This document shows, one piece after another, positions 13,286 to 25,124 of a stretch of DNA of 35,337 bases. Both the position numbers and the translations under genes were made by a program. Under the pieces are notes generated by a model, which saw only the letters and a program-made list of their open reading frames with translations, was not told where the DNA came from and made no database searches. The stretch comes from an uncultured Lachnospiraceae bacterium (GTDB lineage Bacteria > Bacillota > Clostridia > Lachnospirales > Lachnospiraceae): contig CALWLM010000059.1 in assembly GCA_944381515.1 (NCBI GenBank), positions 1-35,337 of the forward strand, read 5' to 3'. The stretch's first letter is position 1; every line of letters begins with the position of its first letter.

Positions 13286-15079
13286 ATGGCAGAATTAAAA
13301 AATTATTATATGGCTGTGGAGAGCAGAGGAGGCGTCTGGACTGGTGAGGATGAGATCGCCTATCTGAGCGACAAAAGCGGCGTAAGCCAGATCTGGAAAA
13401 TATCTTTGTCCGATCGTACCCCCAGACAGCTCACTTTTTACAAAGAGAGAATCTGGCGGCTGGCAGCGGCGGCCAATGGCAAGGATCTGCTTTTTGCCAC
13501 CGATCTGGGCGGCAACGAGCAGGAGCAGATCTATCTGTTAAAGGACGGCGCCGGCGAGGCGGTGGATCTGACCCGGGACGGCAGCTCTCGCTTTTATCTG
13601 GGAGGTACCAACGCAGCCTCCGATACAGTCTATTTTTCCTGCAATCAGAGAGATAAGGCCAGCTTTGATATCTGCAAGCTGAAAATCGGTACGGACCAGA
13701 TCGAAACCGTTCTGGAAAATCATGATAACTACAATACGCCGGCCAGCGTCTCCCCGGACGGAAAATACATGCTTTACAATAAGTTAAAGGGAATGTCCGA
13801 CAACCGGATGTATATCATCGATATGGAGACGGGAGAGAGCCATGATCTCTATCCGGAGGGAAGCTTTGCCCAGTACGGCGATACAGCCTGGAAGCCGGAC
13901 AGCAGCGGATTTTTCGTCACCACCGATGAGGACAGTGAGTTCGAGTATGTGGCCTACTATGATGTGGCCGCCGGAAAGCTTACCGACGTCTACCATGCGG
14001 AGTGGGACGTCAGCGCTGTGGCCCTGAGCCGCGACGGCAAGTACCTGGCTATGGTGGTCAATGCCGACGGTTACGGAGAGTTCCGAATCATGGACCTGGA
14101 TACCGGAAACCTTATCTCGGCGCCCCGTCCGCCCAAGGGCTTTATCTACACCTATGCGGGCATGGACTGGTCTCCTTCGGGTCACAAGCTGCTGTTCTCC
14201 TTCTCCAGCGGCAGCCGTCCGGTGGGGCTGTGGGTGCTTGATCTGGACGCCGACAGCGTCTACGCCGTCACCGACAGCCATATTGACGGCATCAGCAAGG
14301 ACGAGCTGGTAGAGCCCAAGCTCTGTGAATTCCATTCCTTTGACGGACTGCGGGTGCCTTACTGGCTGTATCAGGCTCCGGGGACGGCCGGCAAGCCTGG
14401 CCCTGTTGTGCTGGAGATTCACGGCGGTCCTGAGGGACAGGAGTTCCCGATGTACTCGCCTCTGATCCAGTATCTGGCCGGTCAGGGATTTACCGTAGTG
14501 GCTCCCAATGTCCGCGGCAGCGTGGGCTACGGCAAGAAATACCATCACCTGGATGATGTGGAGAAGCGTCTGGACAGCGTACACGATGTGGCCTGCCTGG
14601 TTGAGCATCTGATTCAGACCGGAGTGGCAAGGCCTGAGAGCATCGCCGTCATGGGCGCCAGCTACGGCGGCTATATGACTCTGGCCAGCATTACCAATTA
14701 TCCGAAGCTCTGGGCGGCAGCCATCGATACGGTGGGTATGTCCGATCTGGAGACCTTCCTGGAGAATACGGCGGAGTACCGCCGCGCTCACAGAGAGTCT
14801 GAGTACGGCAGTCTGGCCCGCGACAGAGAGACGCTGCGCCGCGTTTCCCCGATTCACAAGGTGGATCAGATCGAAGCGCCTCTGATGGTAATCCACGGAG
14901 CCAACGATCCCCGCGTGCCGGTCAGCGAGGCCGATCAGATTGTCGCCAGCCTGGAAAAGAGGGGCGTAGCGGTCAAATATCTGCGTTATCCCGATGAAGG
15001 TCACGGTCTGACCAAGCTCAAGAACAAGCTGGACTGCTATCCTCAGGTGGCGGCCTTCCTGAAAGAGCATTTGATGTAA
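13286..15079 (+). CDS. S9 family serine peptidase (prolyl oligopeptidase/acylaminoacyl peptidase type)
   Basis: A 597-residue cytosolic peptidase. Residues about 1-345 form a TolB/WD-like beta-propeller ('DEIAYLSDKSGVSQIW', 'SVSPDGKYMLYN', 'MDWSPSGHKLLFS'), which usually restricts access to small peptides. Residues about 350-597 form an alpha/beta hydrolase domain with nucleophile Ser459 in GASYGGYM, Asp541 in 'GANDPRVP' and His573 in 'DEGHGL', a complete triad. No signal peptide. Start choice: GTG 13277 overlaps the M14 stop, while ATG 13286 lies 10 nt after GGAGG and gives the natural N-terminus 'MAELKNYY'. Together with the M14 enzyme it offers endo- or aminoacyl cleavage plus C-terminal trimming of imported peptides. 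Confidence 0.92.
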   Translation: MAELKNYYMAVESRGGVWTGEDEIAYLSDKSGVSQIWKISLSDRTPRQLTFYKERIWRLAAAANGKDLLFATDLGGNEQEQIYLLKDGAGEAVDLTRDGSSRFYLGGTNAASDTVYFSCNQRDKASFDICKLKIGTDQIETVLENHDNYNTPASVSPDGKYMLYNKLKGMSDNRMYIIDMETGESHDLYPEGSFAQYGDTAWKPDSSGFFVTTDEDSEFEYVAYYDVAAGKLTDVYHAEWDVSAVALSRDGKYLAMVVNADGYGEFRIMDLDTGNLISAPRPPKGFIYTYAGMDWSPSGHKLLFSFSSGSRPVGLWVLDLDADSVYAVTDSHIDGISKDELVEPKLCEFHSFDGLRVPYWLYQAPGTAGKPGPVVLEIHGGPEGQEFPMYSPLIQYLAGQGFTVVAPNVRGSVGYGKKYHHLDDVEKRLDSVHDVACLVEHLIQTGVARPESIAVMGASYGGYMTLASITNYPKLWAAAIDTVGMSDLETFLENTAEYRRAHRESEYGSLARDRETLRRVSPIHKVDQIEAPLMVIHGANDPRVPVSEADQIVASLEKRGVAVKYLRYPDEGHGLTKLKNKLDCYPQVAAFLKEHLM

Positions 15080-15124
15080 AGGATATAAAGAATTCAAAAA
15101 TCCCTTTTCGATTCCTCCGTTTTG

Positions 15125-15133
15125 TGGTATCAT
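15125..15133 (+). promoter_or_regulatory. Possible extended -10 promoter before the isochorismatase-family gene
   Basis: TGGTATCAT (15125-15133) matches an extended -10. The -35 region (TTTTCG, 17 bp upstream) is poor. The gap between the S9 and isochorismatase-family genes is 104 nt with no terminator, so read-through is also possible. Confidence 0.35.
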
Positions 15134-15183
15134 AGTTCAAACTCTATGGACAATGCCAAAGAACAGATACAGGAGGAAAGAGA

Positions 15184-15711
15184 ATGCTTCGGATTCTGGC
15201 TGTCATTGATATGCAGAAGGATTTTATCGACGGAAGTCTGGGAACGCCGGAGGCGGCGGCTATCACCGCCCCTCTGGCTTCTTTTGCTGCAAACTGGGAG
15301 GGACCGGTGATTTTTACCCGGGATACCCACGGTGCAGATTATCTGAATACACAGGAAGGACGCAGGCTGCCGGTGCCTCATTGTCTGAAGGACAGCGAGG
15401 GCTGGCAGCTTGCCGGCCCGTTGGAGGAGGTGCGCCGGTCCCGAAACTGCCCGGTTTTTGACAAGGAAACCTTCGGCAGCCGCTCTTTGGGAGAATATCT
15501 GGCTCTGCAAAATGAGCTCTGGGGAGTGGAAGAGGTGGTCCTGACCGGCGTATGCACCGATATCTGTGTTATTTCCAATGCTCTGTTAATTAAAGCTTTT
15601 CTGCCGGAAACTACGGTGTCCGTGATTTCTTCTCTGTGCGCCGGCGTAACGCCGCAGTCTCATGGGGTGGCGCTGGAGGCCATGAAGGCCTGTCAGATCG
15701 ACGTTAGATAA
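15184..15711 (+). CDS. Isochorismatase-family cysteine hydrolase (nicotinamidase-like)
   Basis: A 175-residue cytosolic cysteine hydrolase. The family triad is visible: Asp9 in 'VIDMQKDF', Lys94 in 'VFDKETFGS' and Cys128 in 'TGVCTDICV'. A metal site like that of nicotinamidases is suggested by Asp47 and His49 in 'TRDTHGAD' and His66 in 'LPVPHC'. The family cleaves amides such as nicotinamide or N-carbamoyl compounds. The gene has AGGAGGAAAG before its ATG. It lies between the S9 peptidase and the second solute-binding gene, but whether it belongs to the peptide pathway is not clear from sequence. Nicotinamidase is the best guess, with another small-amide hydrolase as the alternative. Confidence 0.85.
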   Translation: MLRILAVIDMQKDFIDGSLGTPEAAAITAPLASFAANWEGPVIFTRDTHGADYLNTQEGRRLPVPHCLKDSEGWQLAGPLEEVRRSRNCPVFDKETFGSRSLGEYLALQNELWGVEEVVLTGVCTDICVISNALLIKAFLPETTVSVISSLCAGVTPQSHGVALEAMKACQIDVR

Positions 15712-15805
15712 CCGGAGACAGCCTGAAATAACCGGTTTACGACCGGCTTGTTTCCATGGCTTTAAGCCAAAAGAAAGAAAAAATAAAGAAAATATCAAAA
15801 AGTTC

Positions 15806-15834
15806 TTGCAAAATCAAAAACAATCTGGTATCCT
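15806..15834 (+). promoter_or_regulatory. Sigma-A promoter of solute-binding gene 2
   Basis: TTGCAA (15806-15811), 17-bp spacer, TGG-TATCCT (-10 at 15829-15834). Nearly the same sequence as the promoters at 6079 and 17733, including the shared 'CTGGTATCCTAT'. The transcript start is expected near 15841. Upstream, 15712-15805 holds only small weak inverted repeats. Confidence 0.82.
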
Positions 15835-15877
15835 ATACCCATTCAGAGGATTGTTTTTAATATTGTTCAGATGGCGG

Positions 15878-15905
15878 ATGGGCGTCAAAACGACGCCCAT
15901 TTTTT
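15878..15905 (+). terminator. Attenuator-like hairpin in leader of solute-binding gene 2
   Basis: A perfect 9-bp stem, ATGGGCGTC (15878-15886) with GACGCCCAT (15892-15900), has loop AAAAC and is followed directly by TTTTT. It has the form of a full intrinsic terminator placed about 38 nt after the predicted start and 96 nt before the ATG. Confidence 0.78.
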
Positions 15906-15912
15906 GCAATCC

Positions 15913-15938
15913 TATTACTTTAACGGGGTAAAGTGATA
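15913..15938 (+). promoter_or_regulatory. Second leader hairpin of solute-binding gene 2
   Basis: TATTACTTTA (15913-15922) pairs with TAAAGTGATA (15929-15938) around ACGGGG; one pair is T-G. A related inverted repeat lies at the same place in the third leader (17845-17858). It could be a ribosome-access or stability element. Confidence 0.5.
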
Positions 15939-16001
15939 ATACAATGCCACGACAATATGCAGAGGCTGTCTCTGGATCGAAAACGGAAAGGAGAGAAGAT
16001 T

Positions 16002-17666
16002 ATGAAAAAGTTTCTTGCACTGATTTTATCACTGGCTATGCTGCTGTCGCTTGCTGCCTGCAGCAGTAACGCGGACACTGGCACTGCCGCTCCTACAGAA
16101 GGCGCCGGAACGGAAAGCGCGCAAGGCCAAGAAACAGACGGCGGCGAAGGGGAGGCCGCGGATACTTCGGATATCTACGGCGGAGTAGCCGTTCAGGAGG
16201 GCGGCACCTTCGTTATCGGCGCCAGCGGTGATCCTCAGAGTTTTAACCCGGATTATCTGTCCGACGATTATCTGTGGCCCATTGCCCAGAACATGTTCAA
16301 CCGTCTGGTCAAGCTGACCACGGAGGATACGGTCATTCCCGATCTGGCGGAGTCCTACGAATTTTCCGAGGATGGAATGACCCTGACCTTCCATTTAAGA
16401 GAAGGCGTCAAGTGGCATGACGGCGTGGATTTCACCTCTGCCGATGTAAAATGGACCTATGATACCATTATCGCAGAGAGCTGGAACAAATCCACCAGCC
16501 TGGAGTCTGTGGAGTCCATCGAGTGTCCCGATGACAATACTGTCGTCTTTAATCTGAAAACTCCCGATGTGACCATCATTTCAAAGCTGGGCTGGTATGG
16601 TCTCTTCATTCTGCCGCAGCATCTGTATGAGGGGCAGGACCCGGCTACCTGCGAGGCAGCCACCACCAATCCGGTAGGCACCGGTCCTTTCAAATTCGAG
16701 TCCTATGAGACCGGCGTGGGCGTTACACTGGTAAAGAATGAAGATTACTGGGGAGACGAACCCAATCCCGACGAGCTGATTTTTGCTATTTACAGCGATC
16801 AGGATTCCATGTATCAGGCTTTCTTAAATGGCGAGATCGATATAATGGGCAGCAGCGTACCGGTTGCCAATGTGGGCGATCTGGACGGCAACGATGCTTA
16901 CCGTACCTTTACGCAGCTGGCTCAGAACCGTACCTATATCACATTTAATTTCTCGGACCCCGATTTCAGCAAGGTGGAGGTGCGCAAGGCCATTGAACTG
17001 GCGATAGACCGCGAAGGTATCTTTACCCGTGTGGGCGGAGCCGGAGCAGCAGCTGAATACTATGTGTCTCCTTTGCAGACGGATTATGTGGATGAGAGCA
17101 TAACCATTCCGGACCGTAATGTGGAGGAAGCAAGAGCCCTGCTGGAATCTGCCGGTTACACCCTGGATGCGGACGGCTATTATCTGCATGCTACGCTGGA
17201 TGGCTTTGAGTCCGGCAACTTCTCCGACATTGCTCAGATTGTCAAGGCTAATCTGGCTGAGGCGGGCATCGATCTCACCATCAACATGATGGAGTATTCC
17301 GCCTGGGGCGACAAGGTAAAGGTCAACCAGAACTTCTCCATTACCATGCTGGCCGGTTATCAGGGCCCCGATATCTCCGGTCTGGCCGGACGTATCCAGT
17401 CCGACGGCAGCTCCAACTTCGGCGGTTACTCCAACGAGAGAGTGGATGAGCTTTTCGCCCTCAGCAACGTAGAGACCGACGTGACGCAGCGGGCAGCCTA
17501 CTACAGCGAGATTCAGCAGATTATGGCCGATGAAGTGCCCATGGTACTCCTGCTGGAGAACGGCGGCGAATACGCCTTCCCTAATAACGTACTGGGTACG
17601 CCTTATGATCTGCCGGAGCTGGCAGCCTCCAGTGAATATACATATCTGGCCTTTACCGCGGAATAA
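16002..17666 (+). CDS. Peptide-type ABC transporter solute-binding lipoprotein 2 (family 5)
   Basis: A 554-residue lipoprotein with signal peptide and lipobox 'LSLAAC' (Cys20), then an acidic linker rich in Gly, Thr and Glu to about residue 60. The mature part matches the family 5 pattern and is very close to the product at 17929, sharing 'NPDYLSDDYLWPIAQNMF', 'SWNKSTSLESVESIECPDD' and 'VTIISKLGWYGLFILP'. Differences concentrate in the linker and in the middle of the protein around 'IMGSSVPVANVGDLDGNDAY'. The frame extends 23 codons upstream, but ATG 16002 carries the AAAGGAGAG site and starts the signal peptide. No permease follows, so it probably shares the DppBCDF-type transporter encoded upstream. 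No terminator lies between it and gene 3. Confidence 0.92.
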   Translation: MKKFLALILSLAMLLSLAACSSNADTGTAAPTEGAGTESAQGQETDGGEGEAADTSDIYGGVAVQEGGTFVIGASGDPQSFNPDYLSDDYLWPIAQNMFNRLVKLTTEDTVIPDLAESYEFSEDGMTLTFHLREGVKWHDGVDFTSADVKWTYDTIIAESWNKSTSLESVESIECPDDNTVVFNLKTPDVTIISKLGWYGLFILPQHLYEGQDPATCEAATTNPVGTGPFKFESYETGVGVTLVKNEDYWGDEPNPDELIFAIYSDQDSMYQAFLNGEIDIMGSSVPVANVGDLDGNDAYRTFTQLAQNRTYITFNFSDPDFSKVEVRKAIELAIDREGIFTRVGGAGAAAEYYVSPLQTDYVDESITIPDRNVEEARALLESAGYTLDADGYYLHATLDGFESGNFSDIAQIVKANLAEAGIDLTINMMEYSAWGDKVKVNQNFSITMLAGYQGPDISGLAGRIQSDGSSNFGGYSNERVDELFALSNVETDVTQRAAYYSEIQQIMADEVPMVLLLENGGEYAFPNNVLGTPYDLPELAASSEYTYLAFTAE

Positions 17667-17732
17667 TAGAGGGCAAGTATCATAACGAAACGAGAACAGT
17701 ATTAAAAATCGAATTAAAAAACGAAATAGTTC

Positions 17733-17761
17733 TTGCAAAATGTCTGACAATCTGGTATCCT
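17733..17761 (+). promoter_or_regulatory. Sigma-A promoter of solute-binding gene 3
   Basis: TTGCAA (17733-17738), 17-bp spacer, TGG-TATCCT (-10 at 17756-17761). It matches the promoters of the two other paralogues. Expected start near 17768. Confidence 0.82.
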
Positions 17762-17804
17762 ATACTTATTCGAGGGGTGTTTTCCATATTGTACAGATGA
17801 CAAG

Positions 17805-17832
17805 TGGACGCCGGAAACGGCGTCCATTTTTT
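17805..17832 (+). terminator. Attenuator-like hairpin in leader of solute-binding gene 3
   Basis: A perfect 9-bp stem, TGGACGCCG (17805-17813) with CGGCGTCCA (17818-17826), is closed by a GAAA tetraloop and followed by TTTTTT. Compared with the hairpin at 15878, paired positions changed together (for example G-C to A-T and T-A to C-G), which supports selection for the structure. Confidence 0.8.
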
Positions 17833-17844
17833 GCACCCGAATCT

Positions 17845-17858
17845 TTTATCGCGATAAA
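17845..17858 (+). promoter_or_regulatory. Second leader inverted repeat of solute-binding gene 3
   Basis: TTTATCGCGATAAA is a perfect 14-bp palindrome. In RNA it could form a 5-bp stem with a CGCG loop; as DNA it could also be an operator. It corresponds in position to the hairpin at 15913-15938. Confidence 0.45.
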
Positions 17859-17928
17859 GCGGCAGTGCAGTGCCATGTCGATATGCGAAAGCCCTCCAGA
17901 ATGCGTAATGAAAGGAGAGAAGAATACT

Positions 17929-19575
17929 ATGAAAAAGTTCCTTGCACTGATCCTGGCACTTGCTATGCTGCTTTCCATGGCAGCCTGCGGCGGCGATGCC
18001 AATACGGATGCAACGGCTGCTCCGGACGGCACCGGTACGAGTGAGCCGGCACAAGGGGATGCGTCTGTGGACACCTCCGACATTTATGGAGGCGTAGAGA
18101 TCCAGAAGGGCGGCACCTTTGTCATTGGAGCCAGCGGCGACCCTCAGAGCTTCAACCCGGACTACCTGTCCGACGACTATCTGTGGCCCATCGCCCAGAA
18201 CATGTTCAACCGTCTGGTTAAGCTGACCACCTATGATACGGTTATTCCCGACCTGGCTGAGTCCTGGGAATTCTCCGAGGATGGCATGACCCTGACCTTC
18301 CACTTAAGAGAAGGCGTCAAGTGGCATGACGGCGTGGATTTCACCTCTGCCGATGTAAAATGGACCTATGACACCATCATTGCAGAGAGCTGGAACAAAT
18401 CTACCAGCCTTGAGTCTGTGGAGTCTATTGAGTGCCCCGATGATAATACGGTAGTCTTTAATCTGAAGGTTCCCGATGTAACCATTATCTCCAAATTGGG
18501 CTGGTATGGCCTCTTTATCCTGCCGCAGCATCTGTATGAGGGACAGGATCCGGCCACCTGCGAGGCAGCTACCACCAAGCCGGTAGGCACCGGCCCTTTC
18601 AAGTTTGAGTCCTATGAGACAGGCGTGGGCGTAACCCTGGTGAAAAACGAAGAGTTCTGGGGGGACGAGCCCAATCCCGATGAGCTGATCTTCGCTATTT
18701 ACAGCGATCAGGATTCCATGTATCAGGCTTTCTTAAACGGCGAGATCGATGTAATGGGCACCAGCATTCCTGTAGCCAACGTGGGCGATCTGGACGGGGA
18801 TGAGAATTACCGCGTGTTTACTAAGCTGTTCCAGAACCGTACCTACATCACCTTTAATTTCTCAGATCCCGACTTCAGCAAGGTAGAGGTGCGCAAGGCC
18901 ATTGAGCTGGCGATTGACCGTCAGGGCATTTTTGACCGTGTAGGCGGAGGCGGAGCTGCAGCTGAATACTATGTATCTCCTTTGCAGACGGATTATGTGG
19001 ATGAAAATATCAGAATCCCGGACCGCAATGTAGAAGAGGCGAGAGCCCTTCTGGAATCCGCAGGCTATACCCAGGATGCGGACGGCTTCTATCTGCATAC
19101 CCAGCTGGACGGCTTTGAGGACGGCAATTTTGCCAATATTGCACAGATCGTCAAAGCAAACCTGGCTGAGGCCGGCATTGACGTTACAATCAATATGATG
19201 GAATATTCGGCCTGGAGCGACAAGGTAAAGACCAATCATAACTTTACAATTACCATGCTGGCCGGTTACCAGGGTCCCGATATCTCTGGTCTGGCCGGAC
19301 GTATCCAGTCCAACGGCAGCTCCAACATGGGCGGCTACAGCAATGAGAGAGTAGACGAGCTCTTCGCCCTCAGCAATGTGGAGACCGACGTAACGCAGAG
19401 AGCAGCCTACTACAGTGAGATCCAGCAGATCATGGCTGACGAAGTGCCTATGGTAATGCTGCTGGAGAACGGCGGCGAGTATGTATTCCCCAGCAACGTG
19501 GTGGGTACTCCTTACGATCTGCCTGAGCTGGCGGCTTCGGACGAGTATACCTATCTTGCCTTTACGGCAGAATAA
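17929..19575 (+). CDS. Peptide-type ABC transporter solute-binding lipoprotein 3 (family 5)
   Basis: A 548-residue surface lipoprotein, the closest paralogue of the product at 16002. The signal peptide ends in 'LSMAAC' (Cys20), followed by a shorter Asp/Thr/Pro linker. Family 5 motifs are intact. It differs from copy 2 in the segment 'VMGTSIPVANVGDLDGDENY' and in 'TKLFQNRTY' against 'TQLAQNRTY', and also near 'GGGGAAAEYYVSP', positions that may line the ligand pocket. The frame is open 63 codons upstream through the leader, but ATG 17929 has AAAGGAGAG and begins the signal peptide. The gene ends 88 nt before a strong terminator, so it closes the locus. The ligand is probably a peptide; differing ligand ranges among the three copies are inferred. 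Confidence 0.92.
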   Translation: MKKFLALILALAMLLSMAACGGDANTDATAAPDGTGTSEPAQGDASVDTSDIYGGVEIQKGGTFVIGASGDPQSFNPDYLSDDYLWPIAQNMFNRLVKLTTYDTVIPDLAESWEFSEDGMTLTFHLREGVKWHDGVDFTSADVKWTYDTIIAESWNKSTSLESVESIECPDDNTVVFNLKVPDVTIISKLGWYGLFILPQHLYEGQDPATCEAATTKPVGTGPFKFESYETGVGVTLVKNEEFWGDEPNPDELIFAIYSDQDSMYQAFLNGEIDVMGTSIPVANVGDLDGDENYRVFTKLFQNRTYITFNFSDPDFSKVEVRKAIELAIDRQGIFDRVGGGGAAAEYYVSPLQTDYVDENIRIPDRNVEEARALLESAGYTQDADGFYLHTQLDGFEDGNFANIAQIVKANLAEAGIDVTINMMEYSAWSDKVKTNHNFTITMLAGYQGPDISGLAGRIQSNGSSNMGGYSNERVDELFALSNVETDVTQRAAYYSEIQQIMADEVPMVMLLENGGEYVFPSNVVGTPYDLPELAASDEYTYLAFTAE

Positions 19576-19656
19576 TGGCAGGGAAGTACCCTGTAAAAAA
19601 GGTCTTTGTCAGTGGATGGTTTCATCTGCTGTAAAGAAATCTTAAAAATTTATAAA

Positions 19657-19685
19657 TTGACACAAAGCCCTCTCGTATGTATTAT
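19657..19685 (+). promoter_or_regulatory. Near-consensus sigma-A promoter embedded in a terminator
   Basis: TTGACA (19657-19662), 17-bp spacer, TATTAT (19680-19685): a full -35 and a 5/6 -10. The spacer and -10 form the 5' arm of the terminator hairpin at 19664-19712. A transcript starting near 19692 would carry only the 3' arm and so escape termination. It would drive the ABC exporter genes at 19763. Confidence 0.75.
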
Positions 19686-19712
19686 TAGTTTAATACACGA
19701 GGGGGCTTTTTT
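19664..19712 (+). terminator. Strong terminator closing the peptide-uptake locus
   Basis: AAAGCCCTCTCGT (19664-19676) pairs with ACGAGGGGGCTTT (19697-19709), with one T-G pair. An inner stem GTATTA/TAATAC extends it, and a T run at 19707-19712 follows. It overlaps a promoter for the next genes. Confidence 0.82.
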
Positions 19713-19762
19713 CCGGCTCGGTTTTGTGTATTGACTGCAAACAGAGGAGAAAGGGGAATATT

Positions 19763-20479
19763 ATGCTTCAGATTATAGACTTATCAAAAAGCTACCGTAA
19801 GACTTTGGCAGTAGACCGGGTGAGCTTCACCGTTCCCGACGGCACGGTGGGTATTCTTCTGGGGCCCAATGGCGCAGGCAAGTCCACAATTATCAAAAGT
19901 GTAGCCGGGCTTCTGCGCTTCGACGGAGCGATCTCCATCCAGGGAATCCCCAATCGGGAACTGGAGGCCAAAAAGGTATTTGGATACGTACCGGAGATTC
20001 CAGCCCTTTTTGACGCGCTGACGGTACGGGAACATATCGAATATGTCCGCCGCGCTTATCACAGCGATATCACCGATGAGGAAATCAATGCTTATTTAAG
20101 ACGCTTTGAGCTTTATGATAAGCAGGATAAGCTGGGCAATGAGCTGTCCAAGGGCATGATGCAGAAGGTCAGCATCTGCTGCGCTCTGGCGGTAAAGCCG
20201 CGGGTGCTGATGCTGGATGAGCCCATGGTGGGTCTGGACCCGCAGGCGATCAAGGAATTAAAGGAGATTGTGCTGGAGTTAAAGGCGCAGGGCGTTACTT
20301 TGCTGATCAGCACGCATATGCTGGAGATGGTAGACGATCTGTGGGATGAGGTTTTTATTATGGACAAGGGGCATATCCTGGCTACTTACACCAGAGAGGA
20401 GGCAGGGGACAAGGACCTGGATGCCATTTTCTTTGGCGCTACGGCAGCGGAACACAGGGAAGAGGAGGAAGAAGCATAA
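19763..20479 (+). CDS. ABC transporter ATP-binding protein
   Basis: A 238-residue single ABC ATPase. It has Walker A GPNGAGKST (34-42), signature LSKGMMQK, Walker B 'VLMLDEPMVGLD' and the switch His 'ISTHML'. The order 'GYVPEIPALFDALTVREHIEYV' is typical of the CcmA/YxlF-like export-type ATPases. The frame runs 13 codons further upstream, but ATG 19763 begins the natural 'MLQIIDLSKSY' and is preceded by GAGGAGAAAGGGG, so it is preferred. One base separates its stop from the ATG of the permease gene, so both form one exporter. Substrate unknown. Confidence 0.92.
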   Translation: MLQIIDLSKSYRKTLAVDRVSFTVPDGTVGILLGPNGAGKSTIIKSVAGLLRFDGAISIQGIPNRELEAKKVFGYVPEIPALFDALTVREHIEYVRRAYHSDITDEEINAYLRRFELYDKQDKLGNELSKGMMQKVSICCALAVKPRVLMLDEPMVGLDPQAIKELKEIVLELKAQGVTLLISTHMLEMVDDLWDEVFIMDKGHILATYTREEAGDKDLDAIFFGATAAEHREEEEEA

Positions 20480-20480
20480 G

Positions 20481-22076
20481 ATGAGCGCTTTGATCTATAT
20501 TGTCCGGCGCAGCCTTATCAACCGGCTGAAAAACCGTCTGCGCCGTCCGCTGACATATGTATCGGTTATTTTTATCATCCTTTATGTTTGGATGCTTTTT
20601 GGCTCCTTTGGGACGATCTTTGAGAATTTCACCGTGACGGGGGAGGAAGCCTATGTGCTGCTGCTGTCCTTCTTTATTGTGTGGACCATCCCCATGTCCT
20701 TTTTGTCCTATGCCAGAAAGCGGGGACTGGCCTTTAAACACAGCGACGTTCATTTTGTTTTTTCCGCGCCGATCAGTCCCAAGCTGATTTTGCTTTATGC
20801 ACATATGAAAATGCTGCCGGCCTCCCTGCTGATCAACCTGATTGTGACCATAGGCGGAACAATCTGGTTTGATATATCGCCGCTGAAGATGCTTTTGTTC
20901 TTCTTGGTCGTCTTTCTTATAGAGAATATCCTGGAGGCCTCTCTGATACTCCTGATATTTGGCAGTGAATCCCTGGGAGAAAAAGGCTCCAAAGGGATTC
21001 GCGGCCTCATTTGGGCCTGCGTCATCTTCATGATTCTGCTTTTGATCTCGCAGATATTTACGCAGCCCTTCGGCTGGCAGATGGTGGCGGATACGCTGGC
21101 CCATCCCCTTTTGCAGCTGATTCCGGTGATCGGCTGGAATATCGCATTTATTCGCCTGCTCCTTTTGGGGCCCGATACCATCAATCTGATCTGCGCCGCT
21201 CTCTATCTGATCGCGGCTGTGGCGGCTCCCATTGCCGCCTGGAGGATGAAATGTACCGGCGAATATTTCGAGGATGCCATGACTTTTGCCGATGAATATG
21301 AGGAGACGCTGAAGCGCAAAAAGAGCGGAACGATGGAAGGCTCCGCACGCAAAAAAAAGTTCAAAAAAGCCCAGGTGGTTTACCGGGGCGGCGGAGCAAA
21401 GGCTATTTTCTACCGTCAGCTTCTGGAGTACAAAAAGAGCCGCTTCTTTCTGCTCAACTACAACAGCTTTATCCTGCTGGGCATCAGTATCATTGCAGCG
21501 GCGGCGGCGGTCCTGGGTATCTTTTCTTTTGACGATATGGGACTGGGCGAGGCAGCTGTATTTATCCTGCCCGGAATCAGCGCATACATGACCTTTATCT
21601 TCAGCGGAGTGACGCCCAAATGGAGCGCGGAGCTGAAAAATCCCTACACCTTCCTGCTGCCGGACACTCCTTTTCGCAAGCTGTGGTATTCAACCCTTCT
21701 TGAACATGTGAAGGCGCTGATGGATGGAGCTTTTCTGTGCGTCCCCCTGGGTATCGTCATGGGACTTACGCCGGTTCAGATCCTTTTGTGCATTCTGATA
21801 TACGCCTGCCTTCAGGCCAACCGTCTCTATATTTCCATGGTCTGCGACGGAATCCTGAGCCCTCTGTTCGGCAATTTTGGACTGTCGCTGATACGTATGA
21901 GCGGACAGGGAATCATCATGGTCCTGGGGATCATCGGAGCGGTCGTCGGAACCGTTTTGCTGGGACCGGAAGCAGGCTTTTTGATCCTGATTGCCATTGC
22001 CGTAGTCTTCTCGCTGCTTTTGGCCCTGCTGGGCTCCATACTGTTTGGCAAAATGGAGAGTCTGGAAAACTATTAA
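20481..22076 (+). CDS. Putative ABC exporter permease
   Basis: A 531-residue polytopic membrane protein, partner of the ATPase just upstream. I count about ten hydrophobic segments, with a soluble loop around residues 275-315 rich in Lys and Glu ('EEYEETLKRKKSGT', 'ARKKKFKKAQVVYRGGGAKA'). The overall pattern resembles the family annotated as putative ABC exporter in clostridia. The substrate cannot be inferred. The reading frame is open upstream inside the ATPase gene, but ATG 20481 is preceded by AGAGGAGG (12 nt) and gives the expected 'MSALIYIVRRSLINR' N-terminus. It ends 24 bases before the convergent SRAP gene, with no clear terminator between them. Confidence 0.85.
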   Translation: MSALIYIVRRSLINRLKNRLRRPLTYVSVIFIILYVWMLFGSFGTIFENFTVTGEEAYVLLLSFFIVWTIPMSFLSYARKRGLAFKHSDVHFVFSAPISPKLILLYAHMKMLPASLLINLIVTIGGTIWFDISPLKMLLFFLVVFLIENILEASLILLIFGSESLGEKGSKGIRGLIWACVIFMILLLISQIFTQPFGWQMVADTLAHPLLQLIPVIGWNIAFIRLLLLGPDTINLICAALYLIAAVAAPIAAWRMKCTGEYFEDAMTFADEYEETLKRKKSGTMEGSARKKKFKKAQVVYRGGGAKAIFYRQLLEYKKSRFFLLNYNSFILLGISIIAAAAAVLGIFSFDDMGLGEAAVFILPGISAYMTFIFSGVTPKWSAELKNPYTFLLPDTPFRKLWYSTLLEHVKALMDGAFLCVPLGIVMGLTPVQILLCILIYACLQANRLYISMVCDGILSPLFGNFGLSLIRMSGQGIIMVLGIIGAVVGTVLLGPEAGFLILIAIAVVFSLLLALLGSILFGKMESLENY

Positions 22077-22099
22077 ATTATTAATTATCCCGCGAACCT

Positions 22100-22729
22100 T
22101 TAGAGAAAAGGCAGCCGCAGCTGTTCATAGTCCTCGGACTTTGGGTCGTCCATCTGCTCCCGGGTCAGAGCAGGCTCGTGCGCAGCGTCCCGGTGCAGAA
22201 GAGACAGGGCATAGGTCTCGTCGGTAAGCCACCGGGCAAGCTCATCTGCGCGCAGGACTACCGGCTGGCGGTCATGGACATCAAGCATGGCTTCTCCTGC
22301 CGCTGTGGTCAAAATTACAAAGCGGCCGCCGGTTTCCGTAAGATCGTAGAGGCCTGCCATGTATAAAAGCTCTGTGCCGGGCCTGCGAAAACGATATTTT
22401 ATTTTTGTTCCGCTGTGACTCCATTCATAAAAGCCGGTGGAAGGAACGGCGCAGCGGCCGGCTGAAAGCCGCCTGCAAAACATGGGCCGTTCGTCTGCGG
22501 TTTCGGAGCGGGCGTTGATAATAAGGCCGGAACCCTTGGGCGAAAGAAAGCCCCAGGTCATGAAATCCGCCTGAATTTCTCCGCCCTGCATACGCAGAAT
22601 CGGAGCCGTATCCGACGGAAAAATCTCCCCGGACGGGGCCGTAAGGCCCTGTCTTTTTTCTGCCAGCCCGATCAGGCTGCTCAGCTCATAGCTCTGTTTT
22701 TTCCAGGCCCATTCGTATCTTCCGCACAT
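22100..22729 (-). CDS. SOS response-associated peptidase family protein (SRAP, YedK/HMCES-like)
   Basis: A 209-residue DNA-repair protein. The SRAP family crosslinks to abasic sites in single-stranded DNA through its N-terminal cysteine. The start is set by this chemistry: after removal of Met, Cys2 of 'MCGRYE' must be N-terminal, so ATG 22729 is chosen although the frame opens 11 codons earlier; AAAGGA lies upstream. The other active-site residues are visible: Asn72 in 'INARSET', Glu102 in 'TGFYEW' and His152 in 'DVHDRQPVVL'. It lies between the convergent exporter gene and pckA, which is on the same strand upstream. No LexA-box-like operator is evident in the short upstream gap. Confidence 0.92.
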   Translation of the reverse strand: MCGRYEWAWKKQSYELSSLIGLAEKRQGLTAPSGEIFPSDTAPILRMQGGEIQADFMTWGFLSPKGSGLIINARSETADERPMFCRRLSAGRCAVPSTGFYEWSHSGTKIKYRFRRPGTELLYMAGLYDLTETGGRFVILTTAAGEAMLDVHDRQPVVLRADELARWLTDETYALSLLHRDAAHEPALTREQMDDPKSEDYEQLRLPFL

Positions 22730-22791
22730 AGTGAATTCCTTTCTATGGTGAATTTCTGCCAAATTTCATGGTGGATGCTTTTTTTGTGTCA

Positions 22792-22827
22792 AATCGCCCC
22801 GTATGCAGGCTGCAAAACGGGGCGATT
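22792..22827 (-). terminator. GC-rich hairpin downstream of pckA
   Basis: AATCGCCCCGT (22792-22802) pairs perfectly with ACGGGGCGATT (22817-22827), and the loop has an internal TGCA/TGCA pairing. It lies about 50 nt after the pckA stop. On the minus strand only TTT follows, so it is a weak terminator or a transcript-end stabiliser, possibly allowing read-through to the SRAP gene. Confidence 0.55.
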
Positions 22828-22879
22828 ATAGGATAACCAATTATTTCTGCATCTAATCTCTGAAAGGGCCGCAGGGCTC

Positions 22880-24484
22880 TTACAGCTGAGGACCGGCGGG
22901 AACCAAAGCCTTGCCGGCTTCATTGCTTTCGTACTTGACGAAATTCTTCTGGAAGCGGGAAGCCAGATCCTTGGCCTTTGCCTCCCAATCAGCCGCATCG
23001 GCATAGGTGTCGCGAGGGTCCAGAATCTGCGAATCAACGCCGGGCAGTTCGGTAGGCACCTCGAAGTTAAAGTAAGGAATGGTCTTGGTAGGAGCGCTGC
23101 CGATGGAACCGTCCAGAATCGCATCGATGATGCCGCGGGTATCCTTGATGGAGATACGCTTGCCGGTGCCGTTCCAGCCGGTGTTGACCAGATATGCCTT
23201 GGCGCCGCTCTCCTTCATGCGCTTTACCAGCTCCTCTGCATACTTGGTGGGATGCAGCTCCAGGAAAGCCTGTCCAAAGCAGGCGGAGAAGGTAGGAGTG
23301 GGCTCAGTAATGCCGCGCTCCGTGCCGGCCAACTTGGCAGTGAAGCCGGACAGGAAATAGTATTCGGTCTGCTCAGGGGTCAGGATGGAGACCGGAGGCA
23401 GTACGCCGAAGGCGTCGGCCGACAGGAAGATGACGTTCTTTGCCGCGGGCGCTGCCGACACGGGGCGGACGATCTTTTCGATGTGGTCGATGGGGTAGGA
23501 GACGCGGGTATTCTCCGTAACGCTCTTATCGTCGAAATCGATCTTGCCGTTCTCATCCAGAGTCACGTTCTCCAGAAGGGCGTTGCGCTTGATGGCATTG
23601 TAGATGTCGGGCTCAGAATCCTTGTCCAGGTTGATGACCTTGGCATAGCAGCCGCCCTCAAAGTTAAAGATACCGTTATCATCCCAGCCGTGCTCATCGT
23701 CGCCGATCAGCAGACGCTTGGGATCGGTGGAAAGGGTGGTCTTGCCGGTACCGGACAGTCCAAAGAAGATAGCCGTATTTTCGCCGTTCATATCGGTGTT
23801 GGCGGAGCAGTGCATCGAAGCAATGCCCTTTAACGGAAGATAGTAGTTCATCATGGAGAACATACCCTTCTTCATCTCGCCGCCATACCAGGTATTGAGA
23901 ATGATCTGCTCGCGGCTGGTGATGTTGAAGACCACGGCTGTCTCGGAGTTTAAGCCAAGCTCCTTGTAATTGTCCACCTTGGCCTTAGAGGCATTGTATA
24001 CAACGAAGTCGGGCTCAAAATCTGCAAGCTCCTCCTCGGTGGGGCGGATAAACATGTTCTTTACAAAGTGTGCCTGCCAGGCTACTTCCATGATGAAACG
24101 GATCGCCATACGGGTATCCTTGTTGGCACCGCAGAAAGCATCCACAACAAACAGGCGCTTATTGGACAGCTCTTTCAGAGCGATCTCCTTAACCGCATTC
24201 CAGGTCTCGACCGAAGCGGGATGGTTGTCATTCTTGTACGCATCGGAGGTCCACCATACGGTGTCCTTGGAATTCTCATCCATGACGATGAACTTGTCCT
24301 TGGGGGAACGGCCGGTATAGATGCCGGTCATGACGTTTACGGCTCCCAGCTCGCTGACCTGACCCTTTTCGTAGCCTTCCAGGCCGGGCTTGGTCTCTTC
24401 CTCAAACAGCATCTCAAAAGAGGGATTATAAACAACCTCTGTTGTGCCAGTGATGCCGTACTTGCTCAGATCAATGTTTTTCAT
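22880..24484 (-). CDS. pckA: Phosphoenolpyruvate carboxykinase (ATP)
   Basis: A 534-residue cytosolic enzyme that interconverts oxaloacetate plus ATP with phosphoenolpyruvate, CO2 and ADP. In fermentative anaerobes it often runs in the carboxylating, ATP-forming direction. Signature parts are visible: '[11 protein letters not shown]' near residue 57, 'GGEMKKGMF', the P-loop '[11 protein letters not shown]', the metal and nucleotide region '[11 protein letters not shown]', and '[11 protein letters not shown]' in the last quarter. The length is normal. The start ATG has AAAGGAGG 11 nt upstream, and a promoter at 24531-24559 lies 47-75 nt upstream. Transcribed opposite to the polA cluster. Confidence 0.96.
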
Positions 24485-24530
24485 CGGGGAAAATGCCTCC
24501 TTTACTCTAGTCTTTTTTATGTCAAATAGT

Positions 24531-24559
24531 AGTATACCTTAATTCTCCAAAAACTTCAA
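24531..24559 (-). promoter_or_regulatory. pckA promoter
   Basis: Read on the minus strand: -35 TTGAAG (24559-24554), 17-bp spacer, -10 TATACT (24536-24531). It leaves a leader of about 40 nt before pckA. Confidence 0.72.
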
Positions 24560-24679
24560 TGTACAAAATGGGTGAAAAATGCAAACAAATTATAAAACTT
24601 TTATTCCTCAGCTGTAAAATCCGCTGAAAAAGCATCCGATATCGACATTAAAAGGAATGCCGTCAATAAAAAGGCCGCC

Positions 24680-24708
24680 TTGTAAAAGTCCCCCGCTTGG
24701 AGTATAAT
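24680..24708 (+). promoter_or_regulatory. Promoter of the zf-HC2/polA cluster
   Basis: TTGTAA (24680-24685), 17-bp spacer, perfect -10 TATAAT (24703-24708). Expected start near 24715, about 62 nt before the first ATG. Divergent from the pckA promoter. Confidence 0.8.
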
Positions 24709-24720
24709 AACGAAGAAAAT

Positions 24721-24740
24721 ACCATGAAACACCATGAAAC
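24721..24740 (+). repeat. Tandem 10-bp repeat in the leader
   Basis: ACCATGAAAC occurs twice head to tail (24721-24730, 24731-24740) in the untranslated leader, shortly after the predicted start. Each copy holds an ATG without a ribosome binding site. Confidence 0.7.
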
Positions 24741-24776
24741 CTATCACAAAGCATAAGCAAGAAGGAGAGCACAGGG

Positions 24777-25124
24777 ATGAAATGCCGCGAATTTGAATCC
24801 AGAATCCCGGCCTATGTCAAGGGCGAGATGGATATGGAAGAGATGCAGGATTTTCTGGAGCACGCTGACAGCTGCGAGGAGTGCTACGGGGAGCTGGAGA
24901 TCACCTACTCGGTCATGCAGGGTATCCGGCAGCTGGACAGTGAAGACGGCGTGGAAGATGGAGGAGGCACATCCCTGTCGCTGGATTCCAGCCTGTATTT
25001 TGCCAGAGAACGAATCAAGCGCTGGACTGCCGGCCGTATATTCAAATATGCTCTGAGCACGGCCGCCTTTTGGAGCGTGCTGTGCGCATTGTGGTTCCAG
25101 CTGCGCCTGTGGCTGGTGCAATAG
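24777..25124 (+). CDS. Small zf-HC2 (anti-sigma-like) membrane protein
   Basis: A 115-residue protein. The N-terminal half has the zinc-binding pattern of anti-sigma factors, Cys3 and then His29-x3-Cys33-x2-Cys36 ('HADSCEECYGELEI'). An acidic linker follows, and a single hydrophobic segment near the C-terminus (about 90-113, 'STAAFWSVLCALWF') anchors it. Such proteins usually hold an ECF sigma factor at the membrane, but no sigma factor gene is adjacent. The start ATG has GAAGGAGAG upstream. The stop is 12 nt before polA, so it is the first gene of the polA transcript. It may be an orphan anti-sigma factor or a small membrane protein that only reuses the zinc motif. Confidence 0.78.
   Translation: MKCREFESRIPAYVKGEMDMEEMQDFLEHADSCEECYGELEITYSVMQGIRQLDSEDGVEDGGGTSLSLDSSLYFARERIKRWTAGRIFKYALSTAAFWSVLCALWFQLRLWLVQ

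Follow-up and report, generated by a model that had tools for sequence, protein, structure and literature searches.

The roughly 55 bp in front of a chromosomal ABC exporter of an uncultured Lachnospiraceae bacterium appear to carry three overlapping signals, namely a sigma-70-type promoter, the operator of a YtrA-like GntR repressor, and an intrinsic terminator. The operator would cover the -10 hexamer and the start site, and the terminator would be built from the spacer between the -35 and -10 hexamers, paired with the bases just past the operator. From sequence comparison, we consider it likely that this is a self-insulating, repressor-controlled promoter, with a predicted start site, predicted termination, putative GntR binding, and a proposed insulating role. 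We refer to the whole stretch of DNA that was analyzed, 35,337 nucleotides within a 2.9-Mb genome assembly, as the window.

RESULTS

The exporter locus and its promoter

Open reading frames, translations, and Pfam matches place a set of oligopeptide-transport genes in the window, followed by two genes for peptide-binding proteins (PF00496) and then by the ABC exporter. The gene directly upstream of the exporter encodes an SBP_bac_5 peptide-binding lipoprotein (17929 to 19575, plus strand; translation, PF00496, and sequence), and its true start is likely at 17929 (MKKFLALILALAMLLSMAACGG) rather than at 17740, where the listed open reading frame opens. The exporter ATPase (19763 to 20479, plus strand; translation and PF00005) is the first gene 3' of the promoter, and the permease follows it on the same strand (20481 to 22076; translation and PF16962, "Putative ABC exporter," E value of 7.9e-112). 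In the window, the SBP_bac_5 gene lies 187 nt from the ATPase gene; there and in the related locus L013, the two are neighbors with the same orientation. The gene 5' of the exporter varies among relatives: the window and L013 have a peptide-binding protein gene there, L014 has an isochorismatase-like gene, and other genera have other open reading frames. The leaders of the two peptide-binding-protein genes are alike (15806 to 15905 and 17733 to 17832), with a promoter-like TTGCAA...TATCCTATAC and, before the start codon, a G+C hairpin followed by six T (15880 to 15905 and 17806 to 17832), and each of these genes may have an attenuator-like leader of its own.

The exporter promoter consists of a -35 hexamer, TTGACA (19657 to 19662, plus strand), found in the sequence, in a promoter scan, and in relatives, and of a -10 hexamer, TATTAT (19680 to 19685, plus strand), found in the sequence and in relatives. 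The position of the -10 hexamer predicts a transcription start about 7 nt past it, at 19692 on the plus strand. The two hexamers match the consensus at 11 of 12 positions, and their 17-nt spacing is conserved and lies within the 16 to 18 nt of sigma-70-type promoters; in a Lachnospiraceae species whose promoters were mapped, the consensus hexamers are TTGACA and TATAAT (excerpt of PMC5171806). The scan of positions 15000 to 25000 returned 19 promoter-like sites, compared with 9.0 ± 2.7 in shuffled sequences, and two of its sites reached 11 of 12. An A/T-rich block directly 5' of the -35 hexamer (19640 to 19656, plus strand), which alignment shows to be conserved in L013 and L014, is a possible UP-like element.

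A predicted terminator hairpin that overlaps the promoter

The preliminary description had placed this promoter over the upstream half of a terminator hairpin, and sequence and folding bear this out (19657 to 19685 for the promoter, 19664 to 19709 for the hairpin). In the RNA fold, the 5' arm (19664 to 19684, plus strand) spans most of the promoter spacer and most of the -10 hexamer, and the 3' arm (19691 to 19709, plus strand) runs into the terminator T-run (19707 to 19712, plus strand), the leading three T of which are base paired with the A-run in the 5' arm. The hairpin has 13 + 6 pairs, a 2-nt bulge, a 6-nt loop, and a folding energy of -26.0 kcal/mol (z score of -5.8), and none of 200 shuffled sequences was equally stable. 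Positions 19664 to 19712 thus show what marks an intrinsic terminator in sequence, a stable G+C-containing hairpin and then a T-run. This hairpin was absent from the list of a simple terminator scan of positions 15000 to 25000, probably because of the 2-nt bulge, and an Rfam scan of the window found no family reaching its gathering score. The fold depends on where the RNA begins, with energies of -26.0 kcal/mol from 19657, -14.5 from 19672, and -5.9 from either 19686 or 19692, so that folding predictions give no such hairpin for RNA beginning near 19692, the predicted start. An alternative hairpin in the exporter's own leader, made of the 3' arm and downstream bases, folded no better than shuffles (z score of -0.23) and was dropped.

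Chance overlap was assessed with 108 promoter-like sites (at least 10 of 12 consensus positions) from 315 kb of the same genome. The window site alone showed spacer-downstream pairing of -18 kcal/mol or better (-22.9, the next being -17.5), and such an overlap is therefore no general trait of the promoters of this genome. Re-paired spacers from the same genome nevertheless reached -20 kcal/mol or better in 0.4% of 2,160 combinations, so that the one case in the window among 108 sites could be luck, and the argument against chance consequently rests on the relatives.

The operator-like palindrome and its candidate regulator

The top of the hairpin is formed by an operator-like palindrome of the GntR/YtrA type, TGTATTA-TTAGTT-TAATACA (19678 to 19697, unstranded), which was recognized by pattern search and by its copies in the genome and which overlaps the -10 hexamer. 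In the upstream alignment, a similar palindrome stands at the exporter of L009 and L010, two distant relatives that lack the G+C outer stem. Seven genomes of the same genus were searched for TGTAYTA-N6-TARTACA with at most one mismatch, the reversed pattern serving as the control, and this yielded 13 sites, compared with 6 for the control. In the genome of the window, the sole other copy found at this tolerance is exact and starts 64 nt 5' of a GntR gene. Six of the seven genomes have the operator, at the same tolerance, upstream of a GntR gene, the GntR match in G001 being only 34% identical; in G002, an incomplete assembly, an operator-linked GntR gene was not found. A short GntR gene of G002 (L086) was ruled out as the same regulator by its different palindrome: the locus (contig C103, around 1300 to 1345) has GTTATACC...GGTATAAC at the TTGACA promoter of this other short GntR gene. 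The candidate regulator (L034:1142-1627) has 161 aa with PF00392 at residues 14 to 76, and its best solved chains by sequence are 4r1h and 3neu. Its operon (G000:C44, L034 1142 to 3107) comprises the YtrA-like GntR gene, an ABC ATPase gene, and a gene for a hydrophobic protein without a Pfam match.

The pattern was then counted in 14 genomes of other genera, picked because their exporter has the operator, which held 49 exact matches, compared with none for the reversed pattern. Thirty-five of these sites are not at the exporter, and 14 of the 35 stand upstream of a GntR gene, with each of the 14 genomes contributing one; among the remaining 21, there is an ABC ATPase match downstream of 15 and neither kind of gene at 6 (neighbors assigned by BLAST at an E value of ≤1e-6 within 900 nt). 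The sites are long palindromes that lie 5' of short GntR genes and of ABC transporter genes and have their GT and AC well away from the center, as the excerpted text of a survey describes for the YtrA subfamily (PMC4494728); the Bacillus subtilis YtrA site is AGTGTA-13bp-TACACT in the excerpt of PMC8060467. Because this pattern of sites and genes fits the YtrA subfamily, the palindrome at 19678 to 19697 is probably the operator of a YtrA-like GntR repressor. With at most one mismatch, the operator is present in 55 of the 62 exporter promoters described below (20 of 22 genera). L015, L016, and L018 have the exporter without operator and hairpin, and in their genomes (G006, G005, and G003) the GntR gene has its own operator; L017 has the exporter without operator, hairpin, and promoter, and the operator-linked GntR gene of G001 is less sure.

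Conservation of the promoter in relatives

A first sample of 61 genomes yielded 9 with the exporter (E value of ≤1e-40). Among 397 genomes sampled from the family there were 35 (≤1e-60), and among 392 sampled from the order there were 8 (≤1e-50), all 8 belonging to the same family. Forty-one exporter upstream regions were readable, of which 32 had a clear promoter, 7 had none, and 2 had a weak one and were dropped; adding further members of two genera gave a final set of 62 promoters from 22 genera. The counts leave out L048, whose ATPase gene is cut by a contig end; L045 and L065, with weak promoter calls; L017, L044, L046, L050, L059, L063, L067, and L152, where a promoter was not found; L157, where it was miscalled; and L070 and L071, which repeat loci already counted.

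TTGACA is present 5' of the exporter in L013, L014, L015, L016, L018, L009, and L010 and absent in L017, and TATNAT or TACGAT follows at a spacing of 17 nt in L013 to L016, L018, and L009. The hairpin is less widespread than the promoter: within the genus of the window it occurs in three of seven genomes, and L015, L016, and L018 keep the promoter without it. It is also missing in L010, L038, and L042 despite a close co-oriented upstream open reading frame.

Stem pairing across genera

The outer stem is made of the promoter spacer, paired with bases past the operator. With one promoter per genus, the 22 genera average -9.04 kcal/mol for pairing between a spacer and its own downstream bases, compared with -5.77 ± 0.50 when spacers are swapped, and none of 20,000 permutations was as good. 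The window's own partner was better than all 26 partners from other genera, in both directions. Classification by minimum-energy folds was rejected, since it called even the window hairpin one without a T-tract, the tract being obscured by distal pairs and by A/T pairs that the T-run itself had formed. A helix score, controlled with chimeras, was used instead. A helix score of at least 11 together with a T-tract (here, T-type) was reached by 14 of 62 promoters, from 7 of 22 genera, but by only 10 of 2,914 chimeras; with any tail, the counts were 16 of 62 and 19 of 2,914. The threshold of 11 was chosen after the results at 9 to 12 had been seen, the T-type counts being 18 of 62 versus 114 of 2,914 at 9, 17 versus 45 at 10, and 6 versus 3 at 12. 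Forty-eight of the 62 promoters fall below the strict T-type definition. A lax threshold classes 26 of the 62 as T-type, 16 as a hairpin without a T-tract, and 20 as neither, but chimeras pass it too often (20.7% as T-type and 28.6% as hairpin only) for this count to be evidence, and the argument therefore uses a score of 11.

The seven T-type genera are that of the window, g76, g117, g147, g165, g200, and g332, and in two of them, g117 and g147, the arrangement occurs without the operator. Stem sequences are unrelated between genera (L039, L047, L056, and the window) and even between L040 and L047 of one genus. In L056, L057, and L064, the promoter lies within the terminator 5' of the exporter in the absence of the TGTAYTA-N6-TARTACA operator. 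Among promoters that share the operator, those of the exporter had a median pairing of -7.3 (n = 22), compared with -4.75 (n = 34) for the others when one weak site was excluded (P = 0.041), a marginal difference that became P = 0.050 when this site was included (n = 35).

Compensatory change and strand bias

The genus g332 allowed an ungapped alignment of 29 promoters (28 distinct), from 30 loci in 36 exporter genomes, six of these genomes yielding no locus and one locus being without a promoter. At the lax helix score, 13 of the 29 are T-type, 8 are hairpin only, and 8 are neither; this score undercounts the genus because only the first 15 spacer bases are scored, which makes counts of pairs the better test. 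Folds read by eye show the long hairpin in 26 of 29; in L138, L142, and L146, the outer 3' arm is missing, and the ribosome-binding site follows soon. Across 13 pairs outside the operator and all 29 promoters, 91.2% of cells are paired, and 8 of the 13 pairs have changed on both sides, a number never reached in shuffles (3.4 ± 1.2). The covariation score was 0.400, compared with 0.268 ± 0.016 after shuffling (0 of 500 as high) and at most 0.122 with the partner slid; related sequences can exceed such shuffles, and the count of pairs changed on both sides is less prone to this. RNAalifold predicted 15 pairs from the same alignment, 7 of them changed on both sides.

Columns 24 to 29 of this alignment are the -10 box, and within it column 27 is C, T, or G with a partner of G, A (or G), or C, respectively (pair 27-52: 13 CG, 10 UA, 4 UG, and 1 GC). 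In the genus of the window, the outer stem has A-U in the window and L014 and G-C in L013.

G-U and A-C mispairs were compared with an aligner that penalizes both equally, 28 of 32 family loci remaining after filtering. The spacer part of the stem had 21 G-U and 2 A-C mispairs (binomial P = 6.6e-5), and the whole stem had 42 and 3; the spacer count is the more trustworthy, since asymmetric operator halves add to the 42. Counted by hand once per genus, the numbers were 13 versus 2 genera (P = 0.007). A palindrome acting only as DNA predicts no such bias, and the hairpin in exporter-sense RNA thus seems to be under selection.

DISCUSSION

Our results lead us to propose that RNA polymerase arriving from the upstream gene would copy both arms, so that the hairpin forms and transcription stops, while polymerase starting at the exporter promoter would make only the 3' arm and proceed into the exporter genes. 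The exporter would thereby be shielded from readthrough, and its expression would be set by the GntR protein alone. Readthrough would otherwise defeat the repressor, and a terminator wrapped around the promoter would stop incoming RNA at the last possible point. The earlier proposal that the hairpin can be formed only by readthrough RNA gains support from the recurrence in 7 of 22 genera, the compensatory change in g332, and the G-U bias. In some relatives, the 3' arm reaches the ribosome-binding site instead of a T-tract, which would mask readthrough RNA from translation; in L051, the ribosome-binding site lies inside the 3' arm.

Recurrence with unrelated stems in several related gut bacteria suggests that the arrangement is under selection and not an accident. 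Weighing against insulation are the many relatives without the hairpin, L010, L038, and L042 among them despite their upstream open reading frames, and the marginal difference between the exporter promoters and others that share the operator. We lean, with somewhat less assurance than for the promoter of the window, toward the broader view that Lachnospiraceae have repeatedly evolved self-insulating promoters in which the -10 hexamer coevolves with the 3' arm, at other genes as well. Two loci away from the exporter bear on the latter point, with gene labels that come from reading the translations. In L116 (G177 C1:584700-586300), with the operator at 791, a 26-pair hairpin reaches the ribosome-binding site of a MutS-like gene, and in L094, with the operator at 1501, promoter and operator lie in a strong hairpin with a T-rich tail 5' of a MacB-like ABC ATPase gene.

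Other readings of the inverted repeat deserve consideration. It could be a DNA site only, an extended palindrome for the GntR repressor with the RNA hairpin as a by-product without a role, as the resemblance of the inner 20 bp to a YtrA-type operator and the symmetric extension of the palindrome past the operator in several relatives (e.g., L009, L042, and L049) would suggest; we regard this as unlikely, because the outer stems are unrelated across genera around a constant operator, the 21-to-2 excess of G-U over A-C is not what a DNA palindrome predicts, the T-tracts lie on the sense side, and the hairpin is present in L056, L057, and L064, where there is no operator. Nor do we find it at all probable that the hexamers overlap an ordinary terminator of the upstream operon by coincidence, or neutrally in a tight intergenic space. 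The window hairpin taken alone fits that explanation, as do the 187-nt gap, the presence of the hairpin in only three of seven genomes of the genus, and the 0.4% of same-genome re-paired spacers that reach -20 kcal/mol; relatives, however, keep the promoter without the terminator, 7 of 22 genera have terminators with unrelated stems around this promoter (14 of 62 promoters versus 10 of 2,914 chimeras), and columns of the -10 box covary with the 3' arm.

Two further readings give the upstream transcript a regulatory part. The preliminary description had linked the exporter inversely to the peptide locus, and insulation might indeed be combined with occlusion of the promoter by polymerase from that locus, which in the window and L013 must cross the promoter from a co-oriented adjacent gene to reach the terminator. 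The inverse link finds no support among relatives, since the upstream gene is not constant where the arrangement is kept; a terminator at this position would insulate without any interference, and the probable operator in the top of the hairpin, which that description had not included, already offers a simpler source of control, so that we think occlusion quite improbable. A leader attenuator, in which exporter mRNA from a promoter further upstream would be conditionally terminated by the hairpin, has a precedent before ABC exporter genes in the patAB system of pneumococcus (excerpt of PMC4319486). We give this reading very little credence, as the scan lists no sense-strand promoter-like site from 19208 to 19657, no Rfam family matches within the window, and a conserved promoter lies inside the hairpin, which its own RNA cannot form in folding predictions.

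If the self-insulating promoter is what we propose, a regulated gene would be governed by its own repressor alone, regardless of transcription from upstream, and a repressor-controlled gene could sit close behind an active operon, protected by a compact natural insulator. It would also mean that selection can act on one set of bases both as promoter and as terminator, so that pairing in the RNA constrains the -10 box. Such an element, small and portable, could escape programs that seek promoters in one stretch and terminators in another. The PF16962 exporter, only "putative" in Pfam, would gain a likely regulator in the YtrA-like GntR protein.

Comparison with known systems

Each part of this arrangement, the sigma-70 promoter, the intrinsic terminator, and the YtrA-type operator, is known. 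In the literature searched, we found no precedent for chromosomal genes at which these parts are nested in one another, for the repeated appearance of this design with unrelated stems, or for a -10 hexamer that coevolves with it; this search covered titles and the beginnings of abstracts, with few subscription journals, and found no published promoter-in-terminator arrangement, which does not prove novelty. One match to "promoter embedded" (PMC5826253) concerns, in its excerpt, a promoter within an sRNA gene and was set aside. Like other intrinsic (Rho-independent) terminators, the element has a G+C-containing stem and a T-run, but its 5' arm doubles as the core promoter of the next gene.

The transposase genes of IS10 and IS50 have their own promoter within or close to an arm of an inverted repeat, so that only RNA from outside folds, and the fold masks the ribosome-binding site of the transposase (fold-back inhibition). 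By sequence and fold, the window resembles them in having the promoter inside the 5' arm and in that only readthrough RNA would fold, and L051 and L116 resemble them further in showing a form that masks the ribosome-binding site. The window differs in that its fold is an intrinsic terminator with an operator palindrome at the top and belongs to a chromosomal ABC exporter, and masking of the IS10/IS50 type does not apply there, as the hairpin ends about 35 nt before AGGAG. In titles and the beginnings of abstracts, the literature on the protection of IS10 and IS50 gave no match to the window arrangement, and the excerpt of PMC8450116 does not describe that protection.

The regulatory side is in line with YtrA-subfamily systems as excerpted from PMC4494728, in which a short GntR gene lies in an ABC transporter operon with a long palindrome and the site stands 5' of its own operon and of other ABC transporter genes. 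Relative to the B. subtilis YtrA site (excerpt of PMC8060467), the palindrome here, TGTA-N12-TACA, is one base shorter, and the system departs from YtrA systems in that the exporter target is encoded elsewhere than the regulator and a terminator hairpin encloses the operator. The patAB attenuator of Streptococcus pneumoniae likewise has a terminator hairpin 5' of an ABC exporter (excerpt of PMC4319486). There, the predicted start lies upstream of the hairpin, and the transcript attenuated is the system's own, whereas in the window the start is predicted to lie inside the hairpin.
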